DNA of 64,000 nt, taken from assembly GCA_033439265.1 (NCBI GenBank), contig JAVTVX010000004.1, positions 10,582,201-10,646,200 on the forward strand, read 5' to 3'. The notes beneath the pieces were generated by a model, which saw nothing but the letters and a program-made list of their open reading frames with translations, had not been told where the DNA came from and searched no databases. A program made the position numbers and the translations under genes. This DNA is from Dillenia suffruticosa (Eukaryota; Streptophyta; Magnoliopsida; Dilleniales; Dilleniaceae). Shown here in pieces: positions 2,338 through 64,000 of this stretch (positions are counted from its first letter, which is position 1; each line of letters starts with the position of its first letter).

Positions 2338-2443
2338 TTTTCGTATTGGTAGCCTTAACTGACTTCATGTTACTACACGGGTTGATCTGTTCTTTGCAAA
2401 TGATATGTACGATACATGTGGTTGATTTTGCAAATACATGATT

Positions 2444-5400
2444 TGTCACGCCCCAAACCGGGGTCATGAGCAACCACCCGTTACCCTGGATGTCGACTAT
2501 ATTTTTACAAAAAATCGGGAAAAATCTCCATATATTTCGGAGGTCTCCCAAGTACAATTTGACTTGTATATCAACATTCATCCTATAAAATAAACAAATG
2601 GTCATCCCGACCTCTCCAAAATCAACCAATGCCACAGCCAACATCCAGAACAACGCAAGGCTATAAAAATTTCCAGCAAACCTAACCACAGACCTCTACT
2701 GTCATGCCCAACTAGAGTACGAGTAGCCGCCACACCGAGCGGACATAAAATTTTACATAATATACAATAATTTTCCCAAGTAATATTCAAATACGTACAA
2801 TCGGCTCAATACAAATAAAATATGAGAGCTTCACAAATAAATATACATAAATTATACAGTCATCCTAAAAATAAATAAATGAGTACATTTATCAAATTAA
2901 AATCTCCAATAATCGTAGCGGGAGATATGGTAACATCCATACCCAAACCCGGTACTATCAAGTCAACATCGCAATACAATAATTCTTCTTCAGTCCAAAA
3001 CTAATCCTGTGGGGAGAAAGTGAGGGGTGAGTATCTATGGGAGGATACTCAACAAGTGAGGGGATTGATATCGTGCTATTAATATCGAGGGTGAACTTGG
3101 AATGTCAAAACATGGAACATAATATAAGTATGCGAAAATAACGTGTTGTTTCAATGTAAAACATATCTCCAGGCACACATTAGAAAATAACATATGCATC
3201 CCTCCATGTATCAAGTCACATACGTAGAACCGGCCAAACAAACAATCCCGGCAATGGTCTACCTCGACCAAGGACGGGCACATTGGGAGTTTTTCACTAT
3301 ACAAATATCAAATACTGGTTGTCTACCCCAATGTTGGCCAAAGGCTACTTCAACTAACCTGTAATTAATAATAATAATACATATATATAGTCGGCCGTGT
3401 ATGATGTCCTGCCCAGTGTTAGACAGAGGCAAACTCACATCCTCTCCGATAAGGGTCAACCTAGAACACCCAAATACATAACGATCTGGCGAATACCTCC
3501 GGCCGAAACGTATTCGGGTACAAGGGGTGCCTCTACCAAATATCCTTCGTAGCTACGGAATGCTAGAGGAAGTATATCACCATATCACCAAGTCGGTCGG
3601 GCATGTAGCCCCATGCATCATATCATCACATCGGTCGGGCATACAACCCTATGCATTGTATCATATCATCAGCCGGGCGTACAGCCCAAAGATTTTATAT
3701 AAATCCATTCAAAACCATGTGCCAATACAGTGAAAAGTTGGCACAATATCAATTATCAAACTCATGGATGCATAATCTATAAAATCAGCAGTTGAGACAC
3801 TCCAATGGTCATAAAATATGTACATATACTTATCAAAATCTAAACATTCAGTTTTCACACGTATAAAAATCATGTCGTTTGAAAATCGGTAAAACATGAT
3901 TTGTCAATCAATAGTAGATGTCAAAGTCCCACTCACTATATGGGAGAGGGTAGCACACACTCCAATAAACCACAAAGTGAAGAAAGAGTGCTCTGCTCAA
4001 TCGATCAAGCGCTATATCACTACAATAAGAGTTTACACATAACACATTAAAGGTGTTATAGCATTTGGGAATTAAAGGTCATATTTTAAATATCCCTTTC
4101 AACTATCCAAATAACAACTCCAACCACACATTATCAGAGGTACCCAACGCAATGAATGTGATACTAACATCAACTATTTACATCATCATTAACATCTCCA
4201 ATGTCTTTTCTAAATCATCAAAATGGCAACATAGGGTACACACCATGAAAACACCCAACTCAAGATAATGTTATTAACCATCAAATGCATCATTCATCTA
4301 TCCAATGCAACACCATAAAATATATCTACCATATATGCATACTCGCACATGTTCTTGTAAAATCTTATCATTTACACATTTTCAAGTCACTTAAATACAC
4401 CAATATTGGAAATACATGAACACACAATCATATATCCTTATACCTACATATAAACCTTCATTTTGCTTATTAAACACCATTCACAATACTCCTAACAACA
4501 TGCTATACTTGGGTTCCCTCCAATGTACTTGGCCAAGGCATTGCACATATATAGGGTCACAACTTTCACCTCAAAATCACCATACATATACCTATAACTT
4601 CTCATGCTCATGCCCTAAATTTTATATGCATATGGTCACTAATGCACCACAAAAATATGCACCCCAAAAATCTGTACACAGTTGGACTCCTTTAGTGCAG
4701 GAAATCCTACACTCATTCCTACTCTCTTTTATGCATTAACACACATATGTACACACTTTACTTCATGCCAAATTTCTGTACGTGTAATAGCACAAAAAAA
4801 TCCTACACTTAACCTAATTAACCACATACAACGTCAGAAAACGCATTCTATTCAAATCTAGTTTACATTCTAGTATATACAAGACTTCTTATCTTAAATT
4901 TACCCTAAATTTGATAGCCAAATCGAATGGGTCCGAAATCCCTCACCTAGGGTTTTCTCGGAACATAAACCTTCGTCCGAATGTCTCCTAGATCCCTACA
5001 AAATCTGAAACGCTACCTATCAAGACAAGATTTATTTGTTAGGTCATAAACACTTAGATCAAAATCAAAACCCTAAATCAGTTACCTGCGTAGAGATTTG
5101 TGGGCTGTCACGGGCTCACGGGCCGTAGCGGGCCATCGCGGGCTATAACGGGCTCGCGAGTCTGTGGGCCAATGGGCTTCTACTAACGGGCTCGCGGGTC
5201 TGCGGGCCAATGGGCTAGTGGGCCGGCAGGCCTGCGAGCTGATGGGCCTACAGGTTGGCGACCCTACGGGCCTGCGACTGATGGGCCTGCGGGCCGGTAG
5301 TGGCTCGCGGGCTGGTGCATGCTCATGTGCTAGTGCACACTTGTGCACTAGTGCGCTCGTAGCCTAGCTCGCACTCGCTGCCTGGCTCGCGCTCGCGGAC

Positions 5401-5871
5401 TGAGGCGCGCACAATCATGGACTGGGTCGTGCTCGCGTTTACGCTGTAGCGCGCTGGCGGAAAGACTTGCTATGGCTCGATCGCCTGCAAGTGCTAGGGT
5501 ACGCTCGTGGAGGCTCACAGGAGGAGACGGTCGTCGTACGCTGTGGCTCGATCACGTGCAAAGGCACACGCTTGCGGGATGCAGCGGTAGTCACGCGCGG
5601 TGGTATGCGGTACGCGGGGGCGATCGCACGATGGTGCGTTGGTGGTAGAGCTCGCGGCGGTGTGCGAATGGGAAGGGAGAGCGATCGCGAGAAATCGCGG
5701 GGGAGAGAAACTTTGAGAGAAAAACCGAGAGGGAAAGAAGAAGAAGAAGAAGAAGGAGAAGAAGATGAAGATGATAATGATGATGGTGGTGGGCTGTGGG
5801 CGGCAGAGCTTGCGGCGAAGGAGGAGTGGCGCCGCGGTAGGGAGAGAAACGAAAAGTTGAGGAGAGAGAGA

Positions 5872-5916
<45 letters not shown>

Positions 5917-6291
5917 GGAGAGATTAGGGTTTCCAACCCTAATCACCAAATCAATTTGGGGACGCAGCGTTTTGCCCCAAAACGTTGTGTCTCCAATTAT
6001 TATTATTTTTTACTAAATAAATAATTATATATATATTTATGCATATATATTTTTATACCCATATTTCGTTAGAAATGCGAATTTCATAAGAATGGGGTTT
6101 ACTTCGATTTGTCGATTCGACAAATTAAAATATACCAAAAATTTAATTTAAATACCCAAAAAATCAAAAATCAAAGTTAAATAAATAAAATGTCTCTCTA
6201 TATAATAAACTGAGGAATATCTCAGTTTTATATGTATATATATATTTTGAAAATGGTACTCTTCTACGAATACCGTAGTGTCGGTGTTACA
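2444..6291 (-). mobile_element. Solo LTR, Gypsy Tekay-like (3.85 kb)
   Basis: Read on the minus strand it begins TGTAACACCG and ends GGGCGTGACA. It is flanked by the direct 5-bp repeat TGATT (2439-2443 and 6292-6296). It has the layout seen in the other Tekay LTRs here: AT-rich start, double hairpin (5922-5991), CT/GA-rich run, GC-rich block (about 5100-5700), then a long AT-rich remainder. No internal region adjoins it, so it is a solo LTR. The same insertion with the same duplication is at 60087-63894. Confidence 0.9.
5922..5991 (-). promoter_or_regulatory. Double hairpin in LTR
   Basis: Two palindromes: 5922-5944 (arms GATTAGGGTT and AACCCTAATC) and 5961-5991 (GCAGCGTTTTG, 4-nt loop, CAAAACGTTGT). 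This is the same arrangement as in the other Tekay LTRs of the window. Confidence 0.6.
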
Positions 6292-7160
6292 TGATTTCTC
6301 TCTCTCTCTCTCATATGATTGAACCTTCAAGACTAATGTTTCAAGTGCATCGAAATTTTGCATGTCATTTGTGAACTTTTTTGGATTGTTATCCTGATTC
6401 TTAATGAATGCAAAGTGAAGATATATTGTTGCACTATGTAGAGCTAGCTGGAGGAATGTGATCAGAGGGCAGAGTCAAATTTACATCATGCTAATGGATC
6501 GCAACAATTGATATTCTTTAGAATGCTAAATCATACATCCATCTGGGGCGTTGAACTTGTTGTAAAACTGTATCCCTTGTGATAGACACTGGAAATCTTC
6601 ATGGAAGTTGTATCATTAGTAATGGCTAACTTCTACGGAACATTTTTCAATGGCTATCTTGTACTCTGGATAGGAAAATATTTTGTAGAAGCTTCCTCTA
6701 TTTAAGACTGATATATGCAAATGACCCTTGTTTTTTCAGAAATCAAATTATTTTGGGTACTGTTAAATTTAATTGCCATAACCTGAAGCATGGTGATTTT
6801 TTAAAAATATTAAAAGATTTTGTTTACGAGTGCATCTCAATGAATAAACACAATAAATTTAGGAACTACAATACCTTTCTTAATAATCTCACAATCAGGA
6901 TGATAACCACGCCAAATAAGTTATCACTGCAAATTCACCCTGTCTCTCTGGAAGTTAAAAAAAAATGGTCAAATTTCAAAAGAATAAGAACAGATATTAA
7001 ATTTTATCGAATTTCTGATACGTAGAAAATATTATGCAGAGTGAGAGTTCAATCATTTTGTAATTTCAATTTACAAGTGTCAACTTCTCTCATCTTCATT
7101 CTAGCATTGTTCTCCATATTAAACAATCTTTTACTAGAAGACACTCGATGAAAATCCACA
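6292..7160. other. Flank inside the arm, no gene recognised
   Basis: Holds a CT run (6298-6311) and AT-rich sequence with no recognisable product. It pairs with about 59171-60086; a 330-bp stretch (6350-6680) shows roughly 4% mismatch by eye. Confidence 0.5.
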
Positions 7161-7820
7161 AATGTCTCTCACTCTTTTCTTATATTTTTAATTGTTCTTT
7201 TATGATCCGTCCTAATCTCCATTCCTTTCTTGCTTTCGTTTTAGTCTCTTTCATATTTAAAGTCTGAAACTCACTTGAAACTAGACTTTACAATAAAAGC
7301 ATCACCTGCCAGATCTTGCTATACTAAGCCGCTCATCCCCAAGCTCAATGTGTAGAGCAACATCAGAGAAAGTTTTCACAATGTTATTGTGATTCAAACT
7401 AAATTTCATGTGCTCTCACTTAATAGGAAAAGATTGGATCAAGACTTGAATTTTTTATTTATTGGAGAGGACATGACTAACTGCCTACTACTCTCTAATC
7501 ATGTTAGACACGTCTCTTAACAATTGTTTGATACTGTGGCCACCTTGTTTTTATTCAGTATCAAACTCTATAGTCATTTATCTAAAATAAGTCACTGGTA
7601 CCTTTATCTTTTACTATGAGGTACACCCAAATGTCATGAGCAGTCACATATTGCTCATACTCAGAAATCACGCCATCAATCACAAAGCTAACCAATGTTG
7701 TATGAATAGTAGAATTTATCCTTTTTCATGCCTGGTAAGCATCTTATTCTCTTATCTATGGAGCAACATTGCCCGTACCAAAGTACTACATGACATGCAT
7801 GATACCTTTCAAGAGAGTGA
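7160..7820 (-). mobile_element. Copia gag relic
   Basis: Inverted partner of 58560-59170, where the frame is easier to read. It resembles the UBN2-type gag of Ty1/copia elements. It is an old, broken fragment with many breaks; no LTRs of its own were found beside it. Confidence 0.55.
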
Positions 7821-7829
7821 ACACTAATA

Positions 7830-9220
7830 TTAATGCTCATATCATACACATAATTTTATTTTTCAAAATTAATATTCAAGATAGGTCAACATTAGGTATA
7901 GAATCAAAAGTTCACTAGATTCTCAGTCATCTTCTATGATACTAATAGATCACCATCATAAATTTAATTTAAAATTACAAAATCCAATAGATTTTCAATG
8001 AGAGTTTCTCAAATTATTCCAACCAAAAAACCTCACACTTAAATATATGAAGTATTTAAATAATTTTATAATTATGGATAAGAATTACTCAGATTCTACC
8101 GGTCCAAAATTTTCTTTTAAACATACAAAATATTTAAATAATATTTTAATTTTGGATGAGAATTACTCAAATTCTACAAATCCATTTATTTTCATTCAAT
8201 AAAGCCTAGTTTTCTTTTCCCTACATGATCATATAATTTAACAAATATAGCCAACAACTATTTAAAAGAAACTTTACATAAAAAAAATTATATAAAACTT
8301 CATCTTTTGCATGATCACGCTCCTAGCCAATAGTCATAACCTGTGAAATAAAATATATAAATAAATTATCATGTTCAGGACAAATCTATTCAGGATATCA
8401 TATTTACAATTTCCTTAGATAGCCTATCCCTAGGAGTAAATCTCCTTAGCACTTGTGAGGAACTATTTATATTTTAAGATAACATTTTCTTGATTTGTGT
8501 CTCTATATTTTTTTACTTCCTACTTTTCTATTAACGATGGTCTTCACATCATTAAGAATCATGTAATCGTTCTTGGCAAGCAACTCATCAAATATGTTAA
8601 CCCAATAAGGAGGTAGCAAATTTCTCAGTATGTACACGTCGTCCCCCGAATGGTATGACCTAATTGAAAAAATTCCAAATGTTTCTCTTCCATAATCTCA
8701 ACATGATCTGATAAAATATGAGATGAGTTCATTTTGTAAATCAACATTTGATCCAATTTCATCAAATACTCTAAAATTATCAAATCTCTTTCCCTCCCCC
8801 AGAGGCCAAAAGACTTTTAAAAATGCATTCGATTATCACCACTTTCCCTAAAAAAGAAAACAAAATTAGGTTAGACACGTAACTAATTATAATATTATAA
8901 TAAATCCTAAAGGATTATTTTTAAAATATTTTTTTAATTTTAAAACAATTTTATATTACAAAACTAATTTTCAAATATAAATAATGAGCAAAAATACAAA
9001 GAAATAATGAGTGTGAAAAACAAATTTCCACTTGATTAGCCAAAAATAAGAAAATAATTTTCTAGACTCATATAAAAATTTTTAGAATTTTTTCAATATT
9101 GAAAATAATTTTTCAATAATTTTAAACGATTTTTAAGTTTAAAAATCTAGAAAAATTATTTTTCAAATTCGAAAATAAATTAAAAATTATAAAAAAAAAA
9201 TCCAGAGAGAACAAAAATTA
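7830..9220. other. Unassigned relic sequence, repeated at 15704
   Basis: AT-rich, with a local duplication of about 75 bp (8041-8100 resembles 8101-8178). From about 8098 on it is repeated at 15704-16820 in the same orientation, and inverted at about 57150-58280. The minus strand has short coding-like stretches (around 8560-8640) that I could not place in a family. Confidence 0.45.
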
Positions 9221-9223
9221 GTT

Positions 9224-9541
9224 TTGATGAAAATTCTAGAAGAAATGGAGGCTGCATGTGCCCTCACACATCGTCGAGATGGATTCTCCAAAATAGACAC
9301 GTGCACACTCTCCTTGGGTGGCGCAAGTACTTCACGCGTTGCCTTCTCGGATTTTACCAATCACCAAATTTTAGTTATCTCCATTTTTGATATCGCTAAG
9401 TTTAGTAGTGGTCTCGAATTTTCTATCAGACATCTCTGGCCTAAGGGGTGGACATCACATGCCAATACCAAAAGTGAGATCGGTCATGAGTACTATTTCA
9501 TCCTCTTTCTCAATTTTTCTTTTGTTTTTTTCAATTTATGA
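9224..9541 (+). other. Conserved 105-codon open frame, unknown
   Basis: Open frame beginning MMKILEEMEAACALTHRRDG. Versions of it stay open at 16826-17167 (113 codons, clearly diverged) and in the other arm at 56833-57144 on the minus strand. The shared core is HLWPKGWTSHA about 70 residues in. It lies antisense to, and inside, the CACTA relic, downstream of the transposase. I recognise no domain, no signal peptide and no membrane segment. It may be a chance open frame kept by low divergence, since the strongest identity is between arms that are recent copies. The 16826 copy is the only independent support. Confidence 0.25.
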
Positions 9542-9612
9542 GGCACCCTGGTTAACTATTTCGTAGAGTTAGCTTTTTTTATGAAAAGATGATGATTTCC
9601 CTGGCTACTCTT

Positions 9613-9756
9613 TCATGTTGGCCCCATCCTTTTACGTCTAACTCTTCCCACAAGTTCCTTGCCAGTGACTTTGAGGAACACTCTGTTTACAATTTGATTG
9701 ATGGACTCTTGCATTGAGATAACTTGTTGAGTTGCTATCATTTCATCAATTTGTTC
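9613..9756 (-). pseudogene. CACTA second-gene (TNPA-like) terminal exon
   Basis: On the minus strand, an acceptor-like TATAG precedes a 47-codon stretch ending in a stop. It contains IDEMMATQQ and GKELVGRVRGKRM. A GRVRG-type motif near the end of a helical segment recalls the plant transposase_24/TNPA-like accessory proteins of CACTA elements. It lies downstream of TNP2 on the same strand, where such a gene is expected. Assignment to that family is inference; the twin is 56611-56754. Confidence 0.35.
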
Positions 9757-10899
9757 CTATACATAAAAAATACATATATAAATTTCAACACAAACTTTCA
9801 TTAAAAGATCAATACAATTGCTTAGAAATAAATTATATCTAAAATTCATGTGACTATCATACTGACAAATTTGTATTTACATATGAACCATCCTTCCTCA
9901 TATGGTAGTTTTGTAAGGTTCAATTCTGTTAGAGGATATCCTATCTCTTATTCCTAAAATAAAATCATTGGCAACTAAAAAGATACTACTAAATACAGCA
10001 ACAGTATTTTAAAAAATTATTAATTCCTTTATCCACCTCGTAAATAACTTTGAGCCGCAGAGCACATATATGTTTGTTGTAGTCAGATCTACTTCACTAT
10101 CTTAGACTTCTCCTACGAAATATTTTGAATTATTATGGTAAGTATATAAAAAGAAAAAAAAAACAAAATCTTATTAAATAAAGCATGTTATTATCTTTTT
10201 ACGTGTTGAGCACTAGTGTGCAACAATGGCCTCCTAATCACGAGGATCGTGACCCTCCGAGACATTTGCAGAAATCTCCTCAACAGTCTAATCATCATCA
10301 TAATATTTTTCTAAGAGTATAACTATGGTATTTAAATGCTATAGAAATTGATTTGAGGATAAATGTATCAACATCATCCTCAATTGGTGTTTCGAATAGA
10401 ATCTTTTTTGTAGAAGAAAACACATGAAGTAAAACATGTTGCAACAACAATAAAAGAAAACAAATATAGAAAATATTTTCATGAAAGATATCATTTGTTC
10501 TTTCGTGCCAAAGATCTATTGTGTTAGTTTTTATGACTAAGAGGGTAAAATGTCATTTAAATAATATATAGGGAAATCTCCTCTCTCTCCCCCTCTCTCT
10601 CTATATATGTAATGTATATATGTATTCTTTCCCAACATTTAAGGTAAATGTCCTCGGATTTACTTTGCCAACAAAAGAAATGTCAAAACATTAAAACCTA
10701 CCGTATTTTTTCTATTGAAATGATGGCAAAAGTTCCCACCACCGGTAATTTTTTTTTTTTAGGAACCACTTTTCCCAACATTTTAGTTCTATAACATTGC
10801 AGAAAATTGACATTAATTCACCATTAAAAATACACATGGCATTTTTCATATATATATTAAATTCACTAAAGGGGCAAGAAACTACTAAAAAATCTCTGA

Positions 10900-13210
10900 T
10901 ACCAATGAAAGTTTCAAACAAACTAACAAATGGGTACATCTATCTGTATTGTACGGGTCCTCTGACCTTCACCTCATAAGCTAAGTGAGCAGGCAAATGC
11001 TCCATACTAGCAAAGAATGACGGGGGAAGATTTTCTCAAGTTTGCACAACGTCTCAACTATATTTCTCTCCAACATCTCCATATGATTAATACGCAACTC
11101 AGTCGCACATAAGTCTCTAAAGAAATTATTGTGTTCCGTTAAAACATCCAAAGTGGCATTGGGTACAAGGTCACGGAAGGTAATAAGAATCAATCTCTGC
11201 ATAAAGATGTGACAATCATGATTTTTCATCCCATAAAATTTGAAATCCTCCAAGCTCACACATCGAGCCAAGTTTAAAGCATATCCATCATGAAATTTCA
11301 AAATTTTCAGCCATCGGCATACATGTAATATTTGATCTTTATGTAAGGCGTATGAACCTTTTGGCAACCAAGTCCTCCCATTCATTTCTCTCAATTCTAA
11401 TTTAGGTCGTTTGCAATACAACCCCAAGTCGAGTCTCGCCTTTACGTTGTCCTTGATTTTTTCTTTAATATCCATCACAGTGTTAAATACATTCTCAAAC
11501 ACATTTTTTTTTAATATGCATCACATCCAAATTGTGGCAAATAAGAAAGATTTTTTAATAAGGCAACTCCCAAAATATACATCTTTTCACCTAGTTGTGT
11601 TCGATTCCAAAGCCTAAAAATGTCTGTCTATCGTATTTTCTTCCAAAGATAATTTCAGAAAGAGAAGACACTCGATAAAACATCTCATCGCCAGATAAAA
11701 GAGGAGGGACATCATTCCCAACTATTCCTTTTCAGAATTTATCCCTTTACCTCCGATATAGATGATCAGTAGGAAGAAATTGATGATGACAATCAAAGAA
11801 TGAAATCTTTCGACCATTAGCAAGAACAAATGACTTTGTATTCTCCATGCAATAGAGCATGCTAACTTTCCATGAGTGCTCTATCCTAACAACATTGCAT
11901 AAGCTGGAAAATCACTTATTGTCCATAAAAGTGCAGCTCTCATATGGAAGTTTTGTTGTCTTGATATGTCATAAGTGATAACTCCATCACTCCATAACAT
12001 TTTCAGTTTTTCAATCAAAGGTCTCAAAAAGACATCAATATGCTTAATAGGATTTCTCGGTCCCAGGATTATCAGACTCATATAAATGAAAGGCTACTTC
12101 ATACACATAGAAGCAGGCAAATTATAAATAGTCATAAAAACTAGCCAACATGAGTAAGGAATAGATGACTGACCAAATGGCTTAAATCCATCTGTACATA
12201 ACCCTAAGTGCATATTTTGAGTTTTAGAGGCGAATGATGGATAAGTAGAATCAAAATGCTCCCATGCTTGACTATAGGCATAGTGTGTAACAACTTCATC
12301 ATCTGTACGTTAATTTCTAGCATGTCATGTCATGTGTTCTACTGTAACTGTTGACATGTAAAGCCTTTGAAGTCTTGGTGTTAGAGACAAGTATCGTAAC
12401 ACCTTGTTTGATACTTGTTTTCTTTTTCCACTACCCACGTTTCAAAGTTTATATCGAGGATTACCGCATATGAAAACAATTGGTTTTTCCCCGATATTCT
12501 AGATAATATAATATACAATAATTTTCACAAATATCAATCTTCTGATAACCAAGTCCAAGTTTTTTCTAGGGTTTCTTTGTTCCATAAAAATTAGATATGA
12601 ACTTTGAATCTTCGGGTAACATAGTTTGTATAATCTCATTAATGCAATCATAATATGCCGCACTTATGTTGAATTCTAACTTGCAATTTAATAATTGTGA
12701 AACTGCTGACAATATTGTTTGCATTTTACACACATTCCATAATGGTTTTTCAGCACTTTTCAACAACTCATAAAACATTGCCGCTTCTGGATTAGGTGGC
12801 TCCGTATTCTCAACATTTATGTCATCAAGATTCGAATTCCAATCAAAATGAGGGCCTAATGCATCGACAATCATGGATCTATATGGACCTTGTACATGCT
12901 CTCTACGTCTAGATGATTCCCCTTCAAATGATTGTCCATTTCTTACTTCTTCGTGACAAACCCATATGGTGTAACCATTAACAAACTCTTTTGACAACAA
13001 GTGCACTGCGACATCATCCCGAGAACAAAATTTATGGTTCCGATAGTTATGGCAAGGACATCTAATCTTTAACCCATCCATAAAATTGTGTTGTGAACAT
13101 GCAAAATCCAAGAAGTTATTAACACTCTCAACAAATTCATTTGTTAAGTATCCATTAGCTAAGCAACAAAACATCCAACTCCAATCAATTGACCCCATAT
13201 CGAATGACAA
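10900..13210 (-). pseudogene. CACTA transposase TNP2 relic (left copy)
   Basis: This is the catalytic transposase of En/Spm-type DNA transposons, which binds the element ends and moves them by cut and paste. On the minus strand 13210-12566 is an open 214-codon frame with the N-terminal Transpos_assoc domain (SRDDVAVHLLSKEFVNGYTI). Transposase_21-like blocks follow at 12081-11881 (IDVFLRPLIEKLKMLWSDGV) and 11502-10981 (KDNVKARLDLGLYCKRPKL, then HICRWLK-type sequence). Stops and frame shifts separate these blocks, and recognisable coding stops near the MYPF motif at about 10939, short of a usual full TNP2. The element's 5' end is upstream at 15703. Inactive; the inverted twin is 53164-55470. 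Confidence 0.85.
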
Positions 13211-13393
13211 ACTATATAATAAAAAAAGATGTTTAAGATGACAATGTCAAATACTACAATGACAATGTCAATAACGTAAAAGAACGAAAAGGGAAAATAG
13301 GGAATACCAGTGTATACTATGGTGATGTGGGATCTATAGAATGTCTACTTGAGTTTAGTTCAATATAAACAGACGAAGATAGAGAATTAGGCT

Positions 13394-15345: not shown

Positions 15346-15351
15346 TTAGAA

Positions 15352-21073: not shown

Positions 21074-21105
<32 letters not shown>

Positions 21106-23204: not shown

Positions 23205-23211
23205 GTTGGAT

Positions 23212-47775: not shown

Positions 47776-47783
47776 AATTGAAC

Positions 47784-52139: not shown

Positions 52140-52560
52140 AAAATGTCAGCATATGTGGTAATCGTACAATATGTGATAACTGATGAAATAGTAACATTTG
52201 CTAATGGATAAATGACTGCAGTAACCGATATAACATATGAATATATGCACTAACCGACCATAAATGACTAACCGACGATAAAAGGTAACAATTGTGGTAA
52301 CCGAATAGTAATCGAGTGATAACCAACAAAAAAAGTCATAACATTTCCTAACATATAAATAACCGTTTCTAAATGGCAGTTACATTTCTTAACAGTTATG
52401 TAGTAACCGACGATAAATGATAATACTTGTGCTAACCGAGTGATAATAATCGAGTCGTAACCGAGTGGTAATCAAAATCAAGTAATAACTGAGTAGTAAC
52501 CAAGTAGTAACTGAATGGTAACTAATAATAAAATATAGTAATTTTTACCCATGCTTAGCG
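52140..52560. repeat. Subterminal repeats (right copy)
   Basis: Many degenerate GTAACCGA/GTAATCGA words, the mirror of 18590-18990. Confidence 0.65.
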
Positions 52561-53163
52561 TAATTTTACCAACACTTTCTGACCGTCACTATAAATATAT
52601 AACATGCTCCAACGGTAATTAAGATTGTCAGTATAAACCTATTCCGACAGGTGTATAGCCAACTAAAATCCTATCCGTTGGAGAAGGATCTGCCAATTTT
52701 CGTCTGTCTGAATAAGTCATTTATTTTGTAGTGAATGAAATAGAATGTAATGATATATAAAAATTCATGTAACCGATACATCGCAATGGAATAAAACTTT
52801 GTGATTACATATGTTCAAATTATTTTGCATTCAATTAGAATTTTCTAAGTATATATTTTTCTTTCTATTTTATGGTCCTATTTTTAAGTATGTGTTAAAA
52901 TATTTGGAGAAAATTTTTTAAACAACAAGACAAAGAAATAATTCACTGATTTAAGATAACGACTGCACATGGTACCTTCAAAGCCTAATTCTCTATCTTC
53001 GTCTGTTTATATTGAACTAAACTCAAGTAGACATTCTATAGATCCCACATAATCATAGTATACACTGGCATTCCCTATTTTCCCTTTTCATTCTTTTATG
53101 TTTTGACATTGTCATTGTAGTATTTGACATTGTCATCTTAAACATCTTTTTTTATTATACAGT

Positions 53164-55470
53164 TTGTCATTCGATATGGGGTCAATTGATCGGAGTTGGA
53201 TGTTTTGTTGCTTAGCTAATGGATACTTAACAAATGAATTTGTTGAGAGTGTTAATAACTTCTTGGATTTTGCATGTTCACAACACAATTTTATGGATGG
53301 GTTAAAGATTAGATGTCCTTGCCATAACTATCGGAACCATAAATTTTGTTCTCGGGATGATGTCGCAGTGCACTTGTTGTCAAAAGAGTTTGTTAATGGT
53401 TACACCATATGGGTTTGTCACGAAGAAGTAAGAAATGGACAATCATTTAAAGGGGAATCATCTAGACGTAGAGAGCATGTACAAGGTCCATATAGATCCA
53501 TGATTGTCGATGCATTAGGCCCTCATTTTCATTGGAATTCGAATCTTGATGACATGAATGTTGAGAATACGGAGCCACCTAATCCAGAAGCGGCAATGTT
53601 TTATGAGTTGTTGAAAAGTGCTGAAAAACCATTATGGAATGTGTGTAAAATGCAGACAACATTATCAGCAGTTTCACAATTATTAAATTGCAAGTTAGAA
53701 TTCAACATAAGTGCGGCATATTATGATTGCATTAATGAGATTATACAAACTATGTTACCCGAAGATTCAAAGTTCATATCCAATTTTTACGGAACAAAGA
53801 AACTCCAAAAAAAACTTGGACTTGGTTATCAGAAGATTGAAATTTGTGAAAATTATTGTACGTTATATTATCTAGAATATCGGGGAAAAACTAATTGTTT
53901 TCATATGCGGTAATCCTCGATATAAACTTCGAAACGTGGGTAGTGGAAAAAGAAAACAAGTATCAAACAAGGTGTTACGATACTTGTCTCTAACACCAAG
54001 ACTTCAAAGGCTTTACATATCAACAGTTACAGTAGAACACATGGCATGACATGCTAGAAATTAACGTACAGACAATGAAGTTGTTACACACCATGCCCAT
54101 AGTCAAGCATGGGAGCATTTTGATTCTACTCATCCATCATTCGCCTCTAAAACTCGAAATATGCGCTTAGGGTTATGTACAAATGGATTTAAGCCATTTG
54201 GTCGGTTATCTATTCCTTACTCATGTTGGCCAGTTTTTATTACAATTTGCCTGCTTCTATATGTATGAAGTAGCCTTTCATTTATATGAGTCTGATAATC
54301 CTAGGACCGAGAAATCCTATTAAGCATATTGATGTCTTTTTGAGACCTTTGATTGAAAAACTGAAAATGTTATGGAGTGATGGAGTTATCACTTATGACA
54401 TTTCAAGACAACAAAACTTCCATATGAGAGCTGCACTTTTATGGACAATAAGTGATTTTTCAGCTTATGCAATGTTGTTAGGATAGAGCACTCATGGAAA
54501 GTTAGCATGCTCTTATTGCATAGAGAATATAAAGTCATTTGTTCTTGCTAATGGTCGAAAGATTTCATTCTTTGATTGTCATCGTCAATTTCTTCCTACT
54601 GATCATCCATATCGGAGGCAAAGGGATAAATTCTGAAAAGGAACAGTTGGGAATGATGTCCCTCCTCTTTTATCTGGCGATGAGATGTTTTATCGAGTGT
54701 CTTCTCTTTCTAAAATTATCTTCGGAAGAAAATATGATAGACAGACATTTTTAGGTTTTGGAATCGAACACAACTAGGTAAAAAGATGTATATTTTGAGA
54801 GTTGCCTTATTAAAAAATCTTTTTTATTCGCCACAATTTGGATGTGATGCATATTAAAAAAAATGTGTTTGAGAATATATTTAACACTGTGATGGAAATT
54901 AAAGAAAAAATCAAGGACAACGTAATGGCGAGACTCGACTTGGGGTTGTATTGCAAACGACCTGAATTAGAATTGAGAGAAATGAATGGGAGGACTTGGA
55001 TGCCAAAAGGTTCATACGCCTTAAATAAAGATCAAATATTACATGTATGCCGATGGCTGAAAAATTTGAAATTTCATGATGGATATGCTTCAAACTTGGC
55101 TCGATGTGTGAGCTTGGAGGATTTCAAATTTTATGGGATGAAAAGTCATGATTGTCACATCTTTATGCAGAGATTGATTCTTATTACCTTCTGTGACCTT
55201 GTACCTAATGCTGCTTGGGATGCTTTAATGGAACACAGTAATTTCTTTAGAGACTTATGTGCAACTGAGTTGCCTATTAATCATATGGAGATGTTGGAGA
55301 GAAATATAGTTGAGATGCTGTGCAAACTTGAGAAAATCTTCCCCCCGTCATTCTTTGATAGTATCGAGCATTTGCCTGCTCACTTAGCTTATGAGGTGAA
55401 GGTCAGAGGACCCGTATAATACAGAAGGATGTACCCATTTGTTAGTTTGTTTGAAACCTTCATTGGTATC
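53164..55470 (+). pseudogene. CACTA transposase TNP2 relic (right copy)
   Basis: Inverted twin of 10900-13210. The first frame, 53164-53913 (249 codons), holds the Transpos_assoc domain at about residues 5-90 and follows a splice-acceptor-like TTATACAG, so an upstream exon is likely lost. Transposase_21-like sequence continues past a frame break near 53910: RLGLCTNGFKPFGRLSIPYS (about 54165), 54286-54486 (IDVFLRPLIEKLKMLWSDGV), STHGKLACSYCIENIKSF (about 54487), and 54838-55419 (LDVMHIKKNVFENIFNTV, ARLDLGLYCKRPELELREM, FPPSFFDSIEHLPAHLA). Stops interrupt at about 54055, 54268, 54484 and 55418. Inactive. The 5' end of its element is missing in this arm. Confidence 0.85.
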
Positions 55471-56610
55471 AGAGATTCTTAAGTAGTTTCTTGCCCCTTC
55501 AGTGAATTTAATATATATATGAAAAATGCCATGTGTATTTTTAATGGTGAATTAATGTCAATTTTCTGCAATGTTATAGAACTAAAATGTTGGGAAAAAT
55601 GGTTCCTAAAAAAAAAAAATTACCGGTGGTGGGAACTTTTGCCATCATTTCAATAGAAAAACTACGGGAGGTTTTAATGTTTTGACATTTCTTTTGTTGG
55701 CAAAGTAAATCTGAGGACATTTACCTTAAATGTTGGGAAAGAATACATATATACATTACATATATGAGAGAGAGGGGGGGAGAGAGGAGATTTCCCTATG
55801 TATTATTTAAATGACATTTTACCCTCTTAGTCATAAGAACTAACACAGTATATCTTTGGCACGAAAGAACAAATGAAATCTTTCGTGAAAATATTTTCTA
55901 TATTTGTTTTCTTTTATTGTTGTTGCAACATGTTTTACTTCATGTGTTTTCTTCTACAGAAAAGATTCAATTCGAAACACCAATTGAGGATGATGTTGAT
56001 ACATTTATCCTCAAATCAATTTCTATAGCATTTAAATACCATAGTTATACTCTTAGAAAAATATTATGATGATGATTAGACTGTTGAGGAGATTTCTGCA
56101 AATGTCTCGGAGGGTCACGATCCTCGTGAATAAGAGGTCATTGTTGCACACTAGTGCTCAACACGTAAAAAGATAATAACATGCTTTATTTAATAAGATT
56201 TTGTTTTTTTTTTCTTTTTATATACTTACCATAATAATTCAAAATATTTCGTAGGAGAAGTCTAAGATAGTGAAGTAGATCTGACTACAACAAACATATA
56301 TGTGCTCCGCGACTCAAAGTTATTTGCGAGGTGGATAAAGGAATTGATAATTTTTTAAAATACTGTTGCTGTATTTAGTAGTATCTTTTTAGTTGCCAAC
56401 GATTTTATTTTAGGAATAAGAGATAGGATATCCTCTAACAGAATTGAACCTTACAAAACTACCATATGAGGAAGGATGGTTCATATGTAAATACAAATTT
56501 GTCAGTATGATAGTCACATGAATTTTAAATATAATTTATTTCTAAGCAATTGTGTTGATCTTTTAATGAAAGTTTGTGTTGACATTTATATATGTATTTT
56601 TTATGTATAG
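55471..56610. other. Intron-like part of CACTA relic 1
   Basis: AT-rich with a GA run (55765-55790). The inverted twin is about 9757-10900. No coding recognised apart from short fragments after the TNP2 end. Confidence 0.4.
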
Positions 56611-56754
56611 GAACAAATTGATGAAATGATGGCAACTCAACAAGTTATCTCAATGCAAGAGTCCATCAATCAAATTGTAAACAGAGTGTTCCCCAAAGTC
56701 ACTGGCAAGGAACTTGTGGGAAGAGTTAGAGGTAAAAGGATGGGGTCAACATGA
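56611..56754 (+). pseudogene. CACTA second-gene (TNPA-like) terminal exon
   Basis: Twin of 9613-9756. Acceptor-like TATGTATAG, then EQIDEMMATQQVISMQESIN and GKELVGRVRGKRMGST before a stop. Family assignment tentative. Confidence 0.35.
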
Positions 56755-56832
56755 AAGAGTAGCCAGGGAAATCATCATTTTTTCATATAAAAAGCTAACT
56801 CTACGAAATAGTTAACCAGGGTGCCTCATAAA

Positions 56833-57144
56833 TTAAAGAAAACAAAAGAAAACTTGAGAAAGAGGATGGAAATAGTACTCATGACCGATCTCACTTTCGG
56901 TATTGGCATGTGATGTCCACCCCTTAGGCCAGAGATGTCTGATAGAAAATTCGAGACTACCACTAAACTTAGCGATATAAAAAATGGAGATAACCAAAAT
57001 TTGGTGATCGGTAAAACCCGAGAAGGCAACGCGTGAAGTACTTGCGCCACCCAAAGAGAGTGTACACGTGTCTATTTTGGAAAATCCATCTCGACGATGT
57101 GTGAGGGCACATGCAGCCTCCATTTCTTCTGGAATTTTCATCAA
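56833..57144 (-). other. Conserved 103-codon open frame, unknown
   Basis: Twin of 9224-9541, with HLWPKGWTSHA in the middle. No recognised domain. Confidence 0.25.
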
Positions 57145-58559
57145 AACTAATTTTTGTTCTCTCTGGATTTTTTTTTATAATTTTTAATTTATTTTCAAAT
57201 TTCAAAAATAATTTTTCTAGATTTTTAAACTTAAAAATCGTTTAAAATTATTGAAAAATTATTTTCAATATTGAAAAAATTCTAAAAATTTTTATATGAG
57301 TCTAGAAAATTATTTTCTTATTTTTGGCTAATCAAGTGGAAATTTGTTTTTCACACTCATTATTTCTTTGTATTTTTGCTCATTATTTATATTTGAAAAT
57401 TAGTTTTGTAATATAAAATTGTTTTAAAATTGAACAAATATTTTAAAAATAATCCTATAGGATTTATCATAATATTATAGTTAGTTACATGTCTAACCTA
57501 ATGTTGTTTTCATTTTTAGGGAAAGTAGTGATAATCAAATGCATTTTTAAAAGTCTTTTGGCCTCTGGGGGAGGGAAAGAGATTTGATAATTTTAGAGTA
57601 TTTGATGAAATTGGATCAAATGTTGATTTACAAAATGAACTCATCTCATACTTTATCAGGTCATGTTGAGATTATGGAAGAGAAACATTTGGAATTTTTT
57701 CAATTAGGTCATACCATTCGGGGGACGACGTGTACATACTGAGAAATTTGCTGCCTCCTTATTGGGTTAACATAGTTGATGAGTTGCTTGCTAAGAACGA
57801 TTACATGATTCTTAATGATGTGAGACCATCGTTAATAGAAAAGTAGGAAATAAAAAAATATAGAGACACAAATCAAGAAAATGTTATCTTAAAATATAAA
57901 TAGTTCCTCACAAGTGGTAAGGAGATTTACTCCTAGGGATAGGCTATCTAAGAAAATTGTAAATATGATATCCCGAATAGATTTGTCCTGAACAAGATAA
58001 TTTATTTATATATTTTATTTCGCAGGTTATAACTATTGGCTAGGAGCGTGATCATGCAAAAGATGAAGTTTTATATAATTTTTTTATGTAAAGTTTCTTT
58101 TAAATAGTTATTGGCTATATTTGTTAAATTATATGATCATGTATGGAAAAGAAAACTAGGCTTTATTGAATGAAAATAAATGGATTTGTAGAATTTGAGT
58201 AATTCTCATCCAAAATTAAAACATTATTTAAATATTTTGTATGTTTAAAAGAAAATTTTAGACCGGTAGAATTTGAGTAATTCTTATCCATAATTATAAA
58301 ATTATTTAAATACTTCATATATTTAAGTGTGAGATTTTTTGGTTGGAAGAATTTGAGAAACTCTCATTGAAAATCTATTGGATTTTGTAATTTTAAATTA
58401 AATTTATGATGGTGATCTATTAGGATCATAGATGATGACTGAGAATCTAGTGAACTTTCGATTTTATACCTAATGTTGACCTATCTTGAATATTAATTTT
58501 GAAAAATAAAATTATGTGTATGATATGAACATTAATATTAGTGTTCACTCTCTTGAAAG
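57145..58559. other. Unassigned relic sequence
   Basis: Inverted twin of about 7830-9220. The plus strand has a coding-like stretch (LPPYWVNIVDELLAKNDYMI at about 57750-57810) with no recognised family. AT-rich. Confidence 0.4.
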
Positions 58560-59170
58560 GTATCATGCATGTCATGTAGTACTTTGGTACGGGCAATGTT
58601 GCTCCGTAGATAAGAGAACAGATGCTTACCAGGCATGAAAAAAGATAAATTCTACTATTCATACAACATTGGTTAGCTCTATGATTGATGGCATGATTTC
58701 TGAGTATGAGCAATATATGACTTCTCATGACATTTAGGTGTACCTCAGAGTAAAATATAGAGGTACCAGTGACTTATTTTAGATAAATGACTATAGAGTT
58801 TGATACTGAATAAAAGCAAGGTGGCCACAGTATCAAACAATTGTTAAGAGACGTGTCTAACATGATTAGAGAGTAGTAGGCAGTTAGTCATGTCCTCTCC
58901 AATAAATAAAAAATTCAAGTCTTGATCCAATCTTTTCCTGTTAAGTGAGAGCACCTGAAAGTTAGTTTGAATCACAATAACATTGTGAAAACTTTCTCGG
59001 ATGTTGCTCTACACATTGAGCTTGGGGATGAGCGGCTTAGTATAGCAAGATCTGGCAGGTGATGCTTTTATTGTAAAGTCTAGTTTCAAGAGAGTTTTAG
59101 ACTTTAAATATGAGAGAGACTAAAACGAAAGCAAGAAAGGAATGGAGGTTAGGACGGATCATAAAAGAAC
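58560..59170 (+). mobile_element. Copia gag relic (right copy)
   Basis: The block EHLKVSLNHNNIVKTFSDVA and the following IELGDERL (about 58950-59040) match the end of UBN2-type gag of Ty1/copia elements. MISEYEQYMTSHDI (about 58690-58735) suits an upstream part. Old fragment with many breaks; no LTRs seen. Confidence 0.6.
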
Positions 59171-60086
59171 AATTCAAAATATAAGAAAAGAGTGAGAGAC
59201 ATTTGGGGATTTTCATCAAGTGTCTTCTGGTAGAAGATAGTTTTATGTGGAGAACAATGCTAGAATGAAGATGAGAGAAGTTGACACTTGTAAATTGAAA
59301 TTACAAAATGATTGAACTCTCACTCTGCATAATATTCTCTACGTACTAGAAATTCGATAAAATTTAATATCTGTTCTTATTCTTTTGAAATTTGACTATT
59401 TTTTTTTTAACTTTCAGAGAGACAGGGTGAATTTGCAGTGATAACTTATTTGATAACTTATTAGCGTGGTTATCATCCTGATTGTGAGATTATTAAGAAA
59501 GGTATCGTAGTTCCTAAATTTATTGTGTTTATTCATTGAGATGCACTCGTAAACAAAATCTTTTAATTTTAAAAAAAAAATCACCGTGCTTCAGGTTGTG
59601 GCAATTAAATTTAACAGTACCCAAAATAATTTGATTTCTGAAAAACAAGGGTCATTTGCATATATCAGTCTTAAATAGAGGAAGCTCCTACAAAATATTT
59701 TCCAATCCAGACTACAAGACAGCAATTAAAAAATGTTCCGTAGAAGTTAGCCATTACTAATGATACAACTTCCATGAAGATTTCCGGTGTCTAGCACAAG
59801 GGATACAATTTTACAACAAGTTCAACGCCCCAGATGGATGTATGATTTAGCATTCTAAAGAATATCAATTGTTGCGATCCATTAGCATGATGTAAATCTG
59901 ACTTTGCCCTCTGATCACATTCCTCCAGCTAGCCCTGCATAGTGCAACAATATATCTTCACTTTGCATTCATTAAGAATCAGGATAAGAATCCAAAAAAG
60001 TTCACAAATGACATGCAAAATTTCGATGCACTTGAGACATCAGTATTGAAGGTTCAATCATATGAGAGAGAGAGAGAGAGGAATCA
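59171..60086. other. Flank inside the arm, no gene recognised
   Basis: Twin of 6292-7160. GA run at 60063-60080, just before the solo LTR. Confidence 0.5.
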
Positions 60087-60462
60087 TGTAACACCGACAC
60101 TGCGGTATTCGTAGAAGAGTACCATTTTCAAAATATATATATACATATAAAACTGAGATATTCATCAGTTTATTATATAGAGAGAGATTTTATTTATTTA
60201 ACTTTGATTTTTGATTTTTTGGGTATTTAAATTAAATTTTTGGTATATTTTAATTTGTCGAATCAACAAATCGAAGTAAACCCCATTCTTATGAAATTCG
60301 CATTTCTAACGAAATATAGGTGTGAAAATATATATGCATAAATATATATATAATTATTTATTTAGTAAAAAATAATAATAATTGGACACGCAACGTTTTG
60401 GGGCAAAACGCTGCGTCCCCAAATTGATTTGGGGATTAGGGTTGGAAACCCTAATCCCTCCA

Positions 60463-60494
<32 letters not shown>

Positions 60495-63400
60495 CCGCTC
60501 TCTCTCTCCCCGACTTTTCGTTTCTCTCCCCATCGCGGCACCACTCCTCCTTCGCTGCGAGCTCTGCCGCCAACCGCCCACCACCACCATTATCATCATC
60601 TTCACCTTCTTCTCCTTCTTCTCCTTCTTCTCCTTCTTCTTCTTCTTTTCCTCTCGGTTTTTCTCTCACAGTTTCTCTCCCCCACGATTTCTCGCGATCA
60701 CTCTCCCTTCCCGATCACACACCGCTGCGAGCTCCACCACCAGCGCGCCATTGTGCGATCGCCCCCGCGTACCGCATGCCACAGCGCGTGACTGCTGCTG
60801 CATCCCGCAAGCGTGTGCCTTTGCACGCGATCGAGCCACAACGCACGACGACCATCTCCTCCTGCGAGCCTCCGCGAGCGGACCCTAGCGATTGCAAGCG
60901 ATCAAGCCATAGCACGTCTTTCCGCCAGCGTGCTACAGCGTAAGCGCGAGCACGACCTAATCCGTGACCAGGCCGCAAGTGCGAGCTAGGCCGCGAGCGC
61001 ACCAGTGCACGAGCGCGCACTAGCACATGAGCACACACCTGCCCGCGAGCCACTGCCGACCCACAGGCTCGCTAGCCGGTAGGCCCATCAGCTCGCAGGC
61101 CTGTCGGCCCACTAGCCCATTGGCCGGCAGACCCGCAAGCCCATTAGCAGAAGCCCACTGGCCCATGGACCCGCGAGCCACTATAGCCCGCGATGGCCCG
61201 CTACTGCCCGTGAGCCCATGACAGCCCATGAATCTCTATGCAGGTAACTGATTTAGGGTTTTGATTCTAATCTAAGTGTTTATGACCTAACAAATAAATC
61301 TTGTCTTGATAGGGGGCGTTTTAGATTTTGGAGTGATCTAGGAGACATTCGGACGAAGGTTTATGCTCCGAGAAAACCCTAGGTGAGGGATTTCGGACCC
61401 ATTCGATTTGGCTATCAAATTTAGGGTAAATTTAAGATAAGAAGTCTTGTATATACTAGAATGTAAACTAGATTCGAATAGAATGCATTTTCTGACGTTG
61501 TATGTGGTTAATTAGGTTAAGTGTAGGATTTTTTTGTGCTATTACACGTACAGAAATTTGGCATGAAGTAAAGTGCGTACATATGTGTGTTAATGCATAA
61601 AAGAGAGTAGGAATGAGTGCAGGATTTCCTGCACTAAAGGAGTCCAACTGTGTACAGATTTTTTGGGTGCATATTTTTGTGGTGCATTAGTGACCATATG
61701 CATATAAAATTTAGGGCATGAGCATGAGAAGTTATGGGTATATGTATGGTGATTTTGAGGTGAAAGTTGTGACCCTATATATGTGCAATGCCTTGGCCAA
61801 GTACATTGGAGGGAACCCAAGTATAGCATGTTGTTAGGAGTATTGTGAATGGTGTTTAATAAGCAAAATGAAGGTTTATATGTAGGTATAAGGATGTATG
61901 ATTGTGTGTTCATGTATTTCCAATATTGGTGTATTTAAGTGACTTGAAAATGTGTAAATGATAAGATTTTACAAGAACATGTGCGAGTATGCATATATGG
62001 TAAATATATTCTATGGTGTTGCATTGGATAGATGAATGATGCATTTGATGGTTAATTGCATTATGGTTTTATCTTGAGTTGGGTGTTTTCATGGTGTGTA
62101 CCCTATGTTGCCATTTTGATAATTTAGAAAAGACATTGGAGATGTTAATGATGATGTAAATAGTTGATGTTAGTATCGCATTCATTGCGTTGGGTACCTC
62201 TGATAATGTGTGGTTGGAGTTGTTATTTGGATAGTTGAAAGGGATAGTTAAAATGTGACCTTTAATTCCCAAATGCTATAACACCTTTAATGTGTTATGT
62301 GTAAACTCTTATTGTAATGATATAGTGCTTAATCGATTGAGCGGAACACTCTTTCTTCACTTTGTGGTATTATTGGAGAGTGTGTTACCCTCTCCCATAT
62401 AGTGAGTGGGACTTTAACATCTACTATTGATTGACAAATCATGCTTTACCGATTTTCAAATGACATGATTTTTATACGTGTGAAAACTGAATGTTTAGAT
62501 TTTGATAAGTATATGTACATATTTTATGACCATCGGAGTGTCTCAACTACTGATTTTATAAATTATGCATCAATGAGTTTGATAATTGATATTGTGCCAC
62601 CTTTTCACTGTATTGGCACATGGTTTTAAATGAATTTATATAAAATCTTTGGGCTGTACACCCGGCCGATGACATGATACAATGCATAGGGCTGTATGCC
62701 CGGCCGATGTGATGATATGATGCATGGGGCTACATGCCCGACCGACTTGGTAATATGGTGATATGCTTCCTATAGCATTCCATAGCTACAAAGGACATTT
62801 GGTAGAGGCACCCCTTGTACCCGAATACGCTTCGGCCGGAGGTATCCACCAGATCGTCATGTGTATGGGTGTTCCAGGTTGACCCTCATCGGAGAGGATG
62901 TGAGTTTGCCTCTGTCTAGCACTGGGCAGGACATCATACATGGCCGACTATATATATGTATTATTATTATTAATTACAGGTTAGTTGGAGTAGCCTGTGG
63001 CCAACATTGGGGTAGAGAACCAGTATTTGATATTTGTATAGTGAAAAACTCCCAATGTGCTCGTCCTTGGTCGAGGTAGACCATTGTCGAGATTGTTTGT
63101 TTGGCCGGTTCTACGTATGTGACTTGATACATGGATGGATGCATATGTTATTTTCTGATGTGTGTCTTGAGATATGTTTTACATTGAAACAACACGTCAT
63201 TTTCGCACAGTCATATTACGTTACATGTTTTGACACTTCAAGTTCACCCTCGATATTAATAGCACGATATCAATCCCCTCACTTGCTGAGTATCCTCCCA
63301 TAGATACTCACCCCTAACTTTCTCCCCCACAGGATTAGTTTTGGACTGAAGAAGAATTATTGTATTGTGATATTGATTTGATAGTACCGGGCTTAGGTAT

Positions 63401-63894
63401 GGATGTTACCATATCTCCCGCTATGATTATTAGAGATTTTAATTTGATAAATGTACTCATTTATTTATTTTTGGGATGACTGTATAATTTATGTATATTT
63501 ATTTGTGAAACTTTCATATTTTATTTGTATTGAGGCGATTGTACGTATTTGAATATTACTTGGGAAAATTATTGTATATTATGTAAAATTTTAGGTCCGC
63601 TCAGTGTGGCGGCTGCTCATGCTCTAGTTGGGCATGACAGTAGAGGTCTGTGATTAGGTTTGCTGAAAATTTTTATAGCCTTGCGTTGTTCAGGATGTTG
63701 GCTGTGGTATTGGTTGATTTTGGCGAGGTCGGGATGACCATTTGTTTATTTTATAGGATGAATATTGATATACAGGTCAATTGTACTTGGGAGACCTCCG
63801 AAATATATGGAGATTCTGCCCGATTTTCTGTAAAAATACAGTCGACATCCAGGGTAACGGGTGACTGCTCATGACCCCGGTTTGGGGCGTGACA
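60087..63894 (+). mobile_element. Solo LTR, Gypsy Tekay-like (3.81 kb)
   Basis: Starts TGTAACACCG and ends GGGGCGTGACA, flanked by AATCA on both sides (60082-60086 and 63895-63899). Inverted twin of 2444-6291, whose duplication TGATT is the same site read on the other strand. CT run 60462-60496, TTC/CTT-rich run 60600-60650, GC-rich block 60715-61230. About 6% different from its twin over 280 bp at the 3' end by eye. Confidence 0.9.
60385..60456 (+). promoter_or_regulatory. Double hairpin in LTR
   Basis: 60385-60417 pairs GCAACGTTTTG with CAAAACGCTGC (a G-T and a mismatch allowed). 60434-60456 is a perfect 10-bp stem, GATTAGGGTT / AACCCTAATC. Confidence 0.65.
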
Positions 63895-64000
63895 AATCAT
63901 GCATTTGCAAAATCAACCACATGTATCGTACATATCATTTGCAAAGAACAGATCAACCTGTGTAGTAACATGAAGTCAGTTAAGGCTACCAATACTAAAA
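63895..64000. repeat. Right arm continues to window edge
   Basis: Reverse complement of about 2338-2443. It shows that the inverted repeat is not finished at 64000. Confidence 0.9.

Follow-up and report, generated by a model that had tools for sequence, protein, structure and literature searches.

The large palindrome in this 64,000-nucleotide stretch of Dillenia suffruticosa DNA (the window) very probably represents a unit that has been inherited and copied many times within segmental duplications arranged in a higher-order array. The window occupies C4:10,582,201-10,646,200, near the right end of an array of ~1.4 Mb at ~9.24-10.67 Mb on the 24.7-Mb chromosome C4. Twenty-four alternating copies of the centre segment S, two clades of arms, and a length marker argue that the palindrome is an inherited and copied unit rather than a lone fold-back or a mis-join.

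The palindrome and its mobile elements

Alignment of the window against itself with blastn bears out the giant inverted palindrome that an earlier note had read from the letters, with arms at 2338-24904 and 64000-46173. The arm sizes of 22.6 kb and at least 17.8 kb, together with the spacer, match that account exactly, in an alignment far beyond chance. The outermost inverted pair, 2338-13397 and 64000-52978, covers 11,100 columns at 95.1% identity (17,387 bits). It is followed inward by 18117-21181 with 52984-49930, 21205-23667 with 49764-47324, 23728-24113 with 47322-46936, and 24153-24904 with 46926-46173. The limits at 2338 and 64000 mark the edge of the window only; when 100 kb is added on either side, the arm pairing extends to C4:10,579,108 and C4:10,651,773, and the full palindrome spans 72.7 kb. 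Two long inverted arms around a spacer are confirmed as present in the assembly as described. A tRNA search found none.

The arms differ by 4-10% depending on the block, which agrees with the several percent and fairly old age proposed earlier. From outside to inside, five MAFFT blocks are 96.1, 95.2, 92.5, 91.7, and 89.8% identical. Transversions between the arms stay at 0.8-1.5% across all five blocks, which rejects an age gradient along the arms, while transitions climb inward from 3.0 to 9.4%. The inner blocks consist of LTR-retrotransposon DNA, and since transitions alone rise, the identity gradient looks like the decay of methylated cytosines in transposon DNA. At substitution rates of ~0.7-1.3e-8 per site and year, the 4.0% divergence of the outer arms would correspond to ~1.5-3 million years.

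The arms share insertions of mobile elements (Table 1), as had been proposed. The same solo LTR occupies one site in both arms, with its target duplication on both sides of each copy, and the CACTA relics recognised by Pfam domains in arm B have counterparts in arm A. An LTR retrotransposon with gag, reverse transcriptase, and RNase H domains (Pfam), putatively of the Tekay lineage named in the earlier note, is also inserted at a common site. In arm A it retains a 5′ LTR at 20867-23204, part of gag, and a truncated 3′ LTR from ~25003; in arm B the 3′ LTR starts at 42648 and is cut off near 42.3 kb. The matching target duplications claimed for this element hold in part: ATTAA stands on both sides in arm A but on the outer side only in arm B, because the inner LTR of arm B is cut off. 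Divergence is 8.2% within the LTR pair of arm A and 6.9% between the 5′ LTRs of arms A and B, as would be expected if the insertion somewhat predates the arm split.

The tail-to-tail meeting of LTRs near 42.3 kb is possibly an old rearrangement junction, and it hints at a break or template switch that joined inverted LTR copies there. The possibility that the large palindrome is really centred on an older inverted repeat within S (34.7-38.2 kb) was considered and rejected, because the transversions of this repeat are several times those of the arms.

Table 1. Features of the window (positions in the 64,000-nucleotide stretch)
Feature	Position	Strand	Remarks
Arm A	1..24904	+	2338-24904 pairs with arm B; 1-2337 pairs piecewise with the right flank
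Solo LTR, arm A	2444..6291	-	Target duplication TGATT on both sides
CACTA transposase remains, arm A	10984..13246	-	Identified via arm B counterparts
Segment of 4.7 kb	13398..18116	+	In arm A, absent from arm B
LTR retrotransposon, arm A	20867..26808	+	Internally deleted; target duplication ATTAA
Centre segment S (spacer core)	26814..41507	+	Amplified on C4 in alternating orientation
X8-domain open frame	29297..29587	+	PF07983, E 3.5e-22
Degenerate X8 copy	31390..31665	+	Below Pfam cut-off
Solo LTR inside S	31932..34695	-	Target duplication GAAAA; inserted in left arm of inner repeat
Inner inverted repeat, older	34696..38174	.	34696-36068 against 36786-38174; 6.7% transversions
Degenerate X8 copy	34845..35267	+	Below Pfam cut-off
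Degenerate X8 copy	38124..38423	-	Below Pfam cut-off
Truncated related LTR	41508..42300	+	Tail to tail with the cut-off LTR of arm B
Same LTR-retrotransposon insertion, arm B	42300..50263	-	5′ LTR 47784-50263, gag/pol remains
Arm B	46173..64000	-	Inverted relative to arm A; runs on to C4:10,651,773
CACTA transposase remains, arm B	53128..55416	+	Transpos_assoc, Transposase_21, DUF4218 (Pfam)
Solo LTR, arm B (same one)	60087..63894	+	AATCA on both sides, complement of TGATT

The array on C4 and the two clades of arms

Copies of the unit were located with four DNA probes from the window against the whole genome; ~40 candidates were scored per probe, so all counts are lower bounds. For the arm probe 2400-3400, 40 matches were scored of 7,406 candidates, and at least 33 lie on C4. 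Among the matches listed, 32 on C4 are 94-100% identical, with at least 26 in 9.33-10.65 Mb, at least five at 18.08-18.42 Mb, and at least one at 8.37 Mb. Other contigs hold at least seven matches to this probe at 89-90%. For the arm probe 18400-19800, 42 matches were scored; C4 copies other than the window itself are 94-97% identical, and at least 13 matches on other contigs reach 92-94%, which indicates that this piece by itself is a dispersed repeat. For the centre probe 38600-40600, 43 matches were scored from 62 candidates, at least 39 of them on C4, and those listed outside C4 are four weak matches of 158-242 bases at 73-75%. For the centre probe 29200-30300 (41 matches from 137 candidates), every match listed is on C4.

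The 24 scored copies of S in 9.25-10.66 Mb alternate between + and -, an order with a probability of 7e-7 among random orders of 12 copies per sign. This map excludes a fragment of 131 bases (9,686,258) whose inclusion would disrupt the alternating order, as well as the second pieces of two split copies and 15 tandem copies at 18 Mb. The marker order b+ s- x- b- recurs at 9281-9315, 9834-9869, 10043-10080, 10274-10311, and 10430-10460 kb and is reversed in the window (one x position, 10303021, comes from the X8 protein search). The array contains six such palindrome cores, the window included, and the remaining S pairs lack at least one marker. A block at 10,491-10,554 kb is directly repeated at 10,604-10,666 kb, a distance of ~111.4 kb, with longer pieces 94-98% identical. 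Blocks longer than 1 kb recur at >90% identity in a fixed order, as in an array of segmental duplications, and whole-block copying explains the alternation of S without a special mechanism. The array structure is known from one assembly, short of proof, with misassembly of the entire array as the alternative. The rightmost match to the window centre stops at ~10.666 Mb; to the right of this point are a MADS-type gene and a gene weakly matching PF12843.

A tree of 30 copies of window positions 1800-4800 (3 kb per arm) separates the arms into two clades. The sample comprises 28 of the 33 C4 matches of the arm probe 2400-3400 and two of the seven from other contigs; the C4 copies at 10132912, 9923562, 9526663, 9750458, and 18371281 are outside the tree. 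Arm A clusters with 13 array copies (support 100/99) and arm B with seven (98/95), seven of the tree copies having been chosen by search as top matches to arm A. Arm B and its array copies in turn cluster with three copies at 18 Mb (100/99). Constraining A and B to be sisters lowers the log-likelihood of the 3-kb tree by 242 and is rejected (AU p 1.26e-46). The nearest relatives of arm A, at 9791 and 9606 kb, are 97.7% identical to it and that of arm B, at 10349 kb, is 97.8% identical, while A and B share 95.8%. The two arms are not each other's sole or nearest relatives in the genome, as joined haplotypes would be. Orientation follows the clades: the other 13 A-clade copies are all -, whereas all six tree members of the B clade from the main array are +, and both are flipped in the window.

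The arms of the window differ at 41 of 43 sites fixed between the clades, which rejects strong gene conversion between them over the 3 kb examined. At the other two sites, near the end of this stretch, arm B has the A-clade base, and A and B are mutually closest in one of 24 windows of 150 columns; slight exchange between the arms is possible. By block, arm identity is 89.8-96.1%, below the >99% of arms maintained by conversion.

Length separates the clades as well. The two arm probes lie 15.0-16.4 kb apart in nine of nine A-type pairs, 10.6-11.6 kb apart in six of six B-type pairs, and 14.9-16.4 kb apart in five pairs at 8 and 18 Mb. This ~4.7-kb length marker agrees in all 15 paired array copies measured, a set that excludes copies with no adjoining partner and one pair at 18 Mb separated by 45.8 kb. 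Segment 13398-18116 accounts for the length difference in the window, so an old deletion in the B clade is probable. The 18-Mb copies are nearer to arm B by sequence but long like arm A by the length marker, so they point both ways on the first step in the origin of the palindrome. In four cases, copies separated by ~208 kb pair as nearest relatives in the tree (bootstrap 99, 99, 100, and 84), and the copies at 9958 and 10167 kb are 99.5% identical, which points to recent duplication of a block that already held a palindrome.

The X8 gene and its copies

Apart from transposon genes, the X8 gene in S is the sole gene recognised in the sequence read from the unit, which for the 36-kb array units amounts to one 800-base piece and two exons. 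The only solved relative of the X8 frame at E 0.001 or better is PDB entry 2jon (E 2.6e-17), listed as beta-1,3-glucanase. A protein search of the genome with X8, in which 150 of 262 candidates were scored, finds at least 43 matches on C4 with at least 74% identity over at least 59 residues. At least 26 are in the array at 9.24-10.61 Mb and at least 17 at 18 Mb, where 15 copies form a tandem array with steps of 4,993-5,009 bases (18.147-18.218 Mb). Related clusters are found at C1:9.889-9.914 Mb (five copies in 6.15-6.18-kb steps, 66% identity) and C19:0.526-0.550 Mb (five copies, 52-69%).

Six cysteines define the X8/CBM43 family. They are present in the translations of eight of eight C4 copies read, and a C19 relative lacks the last cysteine in the frame read. 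Exon structure was read from the DNA alone, and hydrophobic first exons were judged by eye. Both L049, the unit at 18.188 Mb, and L050, one of the 36-kb array units, contain a TATAAA-like element and an intron along with a first exon that is hydrophobic and six cysteines in the X8 exon. L051 shares this first exon, but one splice-donor base is altered and 9 bases are deleted, and the copy at 10,563,967 has a stop within the X8 exon; of these four copies with a first exon, L049 and L050 have no defect. The predicted product is a small, probably secreted protein of sugar-binding type. Ole e 10, an olive pollen allergen, is a stand-alone X8/CBM43 protein, and the copies on C4 that look whole resemble proteins of this type in their single X8 domain and six cysteines and putatively also in a signal peptide. 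Unlike them, the C4 gene has dozens of copies on one chromosome, and its X8 exon outpaces its flanks in five of six pairs.

L049 and L050 form the most divergent pair: the X8 exon has 37 differences in 278 sites, against 5 in 395 for non-coding DNA (Fisher p 1.2e-10), a tenfold excess, and the first exon has 0 in 70. Among the six pairs of the four first-exon copies, p for exon against non-coding DNA ranges from 1.2e-10 to 0.23 and is below 0.05 in five. The X8 exons of the window and L049 differ by 25 replacement and two silent changes, and the intron and 3′ flank at 15 of 980 sites. The codon after EPN specifies five different amino acids among six C4 copies. For the window, 10,498, 10,563, L049, L050, and L051 sequences, dN/dS, taken as ratios alone, is 0.37-3.82 over 15 pairs, above 1 in ten and below 1 in five. 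This pattern would fit diversifying selection, short of proof. Synonymous differences in the X8 exon are likewise raised in some pairs, and for L049-L050 (5.7 of 53) they exceed the non-coding level, which suggests that exon-limited conversion from older paralogues may have contributed to the divergence. The array copies L050, L052, and L053 differ from one another by 0-2 silent and 0-1 replacement changes; recent copying or constraint is a possible cause.

The chance is about even that the X8 copies are passengers of transposon-rich DNA multiplied by recombination, the gene bringing no benefit, a reading compatible with the palindrome as an inherited array unit. In keeping with passengers, the window copy and the copy at 10,498,534 are missing the promoter and the greater part of the signal-peptide (first) exon, five of the 43 C4 copies contain an internal stop, frame shifts interrupt a further two (9,508 and 18,393 kb), and two pairs of array copies differ at silent or single replacement sites only. 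The truncated window copy and the stops speak against every copy being useful. However, 36 of the 43 C4 copies scored are free of internal stops and splits, L049 and L050 are without defect among the four first-exon copies read, a separate 5-kb tandem array holds 15 copies, and the L049 and L050 signal-peptide exons are identical while their X8 exons have diverged. If selection favoured the amplification, X8 would be the likeliest cargo. A possible but doubtful reading is an ampliconic family, in which palindromic, transposon-laden duplications on one chromosome multiply a small secreted X8 protein of callose-binding type, possibly in a non-recombining region. The mature exon would then be under diversifying selection, as expected for a protein in pollen-pistil or plant-microbe conflict.

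Origin of the palindrome and comparison with known systems

An assembly artefact at this place, with two haplotypes or homeologues joined head to head, is exceedingly improbable. Such sequences can differ by 4-10% plus insertions and deletions, as the arms do, but the same inverted core occurs six times, both arm types are found many times on C4 with the two arms not mutual nearest relatives, and the length marker divides A and B types throughout. The inverted haplotype joining raised in the earlier note does not by itself explain the alternating S, the recurrent arm clades, or the length marker, and the array copies, arm tree, S map, and length marker reject a haplotype mis-join here. It is very improbable that a single local inverted duplication produced arms A and B at this site, which then diverged. 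The solo LTR and LTR-element site common to both arms, and an LTR pair in A that differs more than the 5′ LTRs of A and B, as expected if the insertion preceded the duplication, would suit such an event; against it, the 3-kb tree rejects A and B as sisters, and 13 array copies are closer to A and seven to B. The same tree rejects a young local fold-back for this arm pair, although a local inverted duplication may have been the origin of the founding unit. The earlier reading stands for the palindrome, its size, its shared insertions, and its age of several percent, but not for a single event, given the array copies and the two clades. It is unlikely that the array is real but its latest ~208-kb block (9.79-10.21 Mb) is falsely duplicated, for example through haplotypes placed in tandem. 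The nearest relatives ~208 kb apart, including the near-identical 9958 and 10167 copies, could be so explained, but copies in the same order at 94-98% identity occur outside this block, so the array and its palindromes are independent of it.

As an inherited array unit, the palindrome would have the structure arm A, centre S, inverted arm B, and inverted second S. The existence of two arm clades suggests that A-type and B-type arms already flanked S as inverted partners when the array began to expand. The first step may have been an inverted duplication in place or an incoming copy from the 18-Mb cluster. Tandem duplication, probably through unequal exchange, would then have copied whole palindrome-bearing blocks, most recently one of ~208 kb, and the window would be one such block in reverse. 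The arms would have drifted with their own clades, with almost no A/B exchange within this palindrome over the 3 kb tested.

Segmental-duplication arrays that have a higher-order period form a general class. The C4 array resembles them in its large, transposon-rich units, tandem blocks of ~111 and ~208 kb, and expansion on one chromosome. It differs from them in that S alternates in orientation among the scored copies, which makes palindromes the repeated motif. The array is of a known kind, a variant by virtue of S alternation, separate arm clades, and X8 cargo. Amplified X8 genes and comparable plant palindromic arrays were not found in the literature searched, which is weak evidence only.

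The W chromosome of the willow Salix purpurea carries palindromes W.P1 and W.P2 with arms of ~20 kb in a female-specific region; four arms average >99% identity and show signs of gene conversion (PMC7023750). The C4 palindrome is like W.P1 and W.P2, as described there, in its location on a plant chromosome, arms of ~20 kb, adjoining inverted copies, genes within the repeats, and arm-specific insertions and deletions (PMC7023750). Unlike the willow arms, with their >99% identity and conversion, the arms here are ~96% identical outside and 90% inside and fall in separate clades (PMC7023750).

The finding suggests that palindromes in plants need not be one-off accidents but can serve as heritable units from which a megabase array is built, with arms that remain apart rather than being homogenised as in the willow W palindromes. 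For genome scanning, a palindrome that seems to stand alone should first be compared with the genome it comes from, and only then explained by a haplotype mis-join. If the X8 genes are active, the array would allow a test of whether amplification through palindromes is coupled to rapid protein change outside known sex chromosomes.

X8 genes of the window, the 18-Mb tandem array and other clusters

The X8 (CBM43, PF07983) exon of the window was compared with its counterparts in L049, a unit of the tandem array at 18 Mb of C4, and L050, a 36-kb unit of the array of palindromic units to which the window belongs. Divergence in this exon far exceeds that of the introns and flanks, and the first exon of the gene is unchanged between L049 and L050. 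The unit of the 18-Mb array, as read in L049, carries an X8 gene with its first exon and a promoter-like element. The X8 frames score equally in all 15 scored copies, and none of these 15 contains a stop codon. Two further clusters lie on other contigs, and an exon pair in the palindromic array is perhaps a recombinant copy.

Positions of the features discussed (C4, contig JAVTVX010000004.1; C1 and C19, other contigs of the same genome)
Feature	Position	Details
X8 exon compared	window 29314-29587	
Inner inverted repeat	window 34696-38174	X8 remains; transversions 6.7%
Tail-to-tail LTRs	window 41508-42648	two, related, truncated; inner end of arm B
X8 tandem array	C4:18,147,103-18,218,263	5.0-kb unit; at least 15 copies (scored matches)
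X8 cluster	C1:9,889,098-9,913,972	five copies among the matches listed; spacing 6.15-6.18 kb
X8 cluster	C19:525,680-550,200	five copies among the matches listed
X8 exon pair	C4:10,384,303-10,384,812	~30 bases apart; 97% and 88% identity to the window's X8 exon
LTR-element DNA, 8.2 kb	C4:10,571,636-10,579,812	just outside arm A
Inverted copy	C4:10,483,062-10,491,228	left of arm A; 95.6% identity
MADS-box gene	C4:10,742,633-10,743,448	PF00319, E 5.5e-18; positions 6433-7248 of right-flank piece L028
Region with probable tandem duplication	C4:9.79-10.21 Mb	duplicated block of ~208 kb

Possible traces of rearrangement inside the window

The inner inverted repeat is older and is interrupted by a solo LTR with the target duplication GAAAA. 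The meeting point of the two tail-to-tail LTRs is possibly an old rearrangement junction.

Surroundings of the palindromic array and a probable recent duplication within it

The LTR-element stretch next to arm A has its inverted counterpart to the left, and the MADS-box gene lies ~77 kb right of the right edge of the array. Within the array, one block was probably duplicated in tandem recently; one pair of copies in this region shares 99.5% identity.
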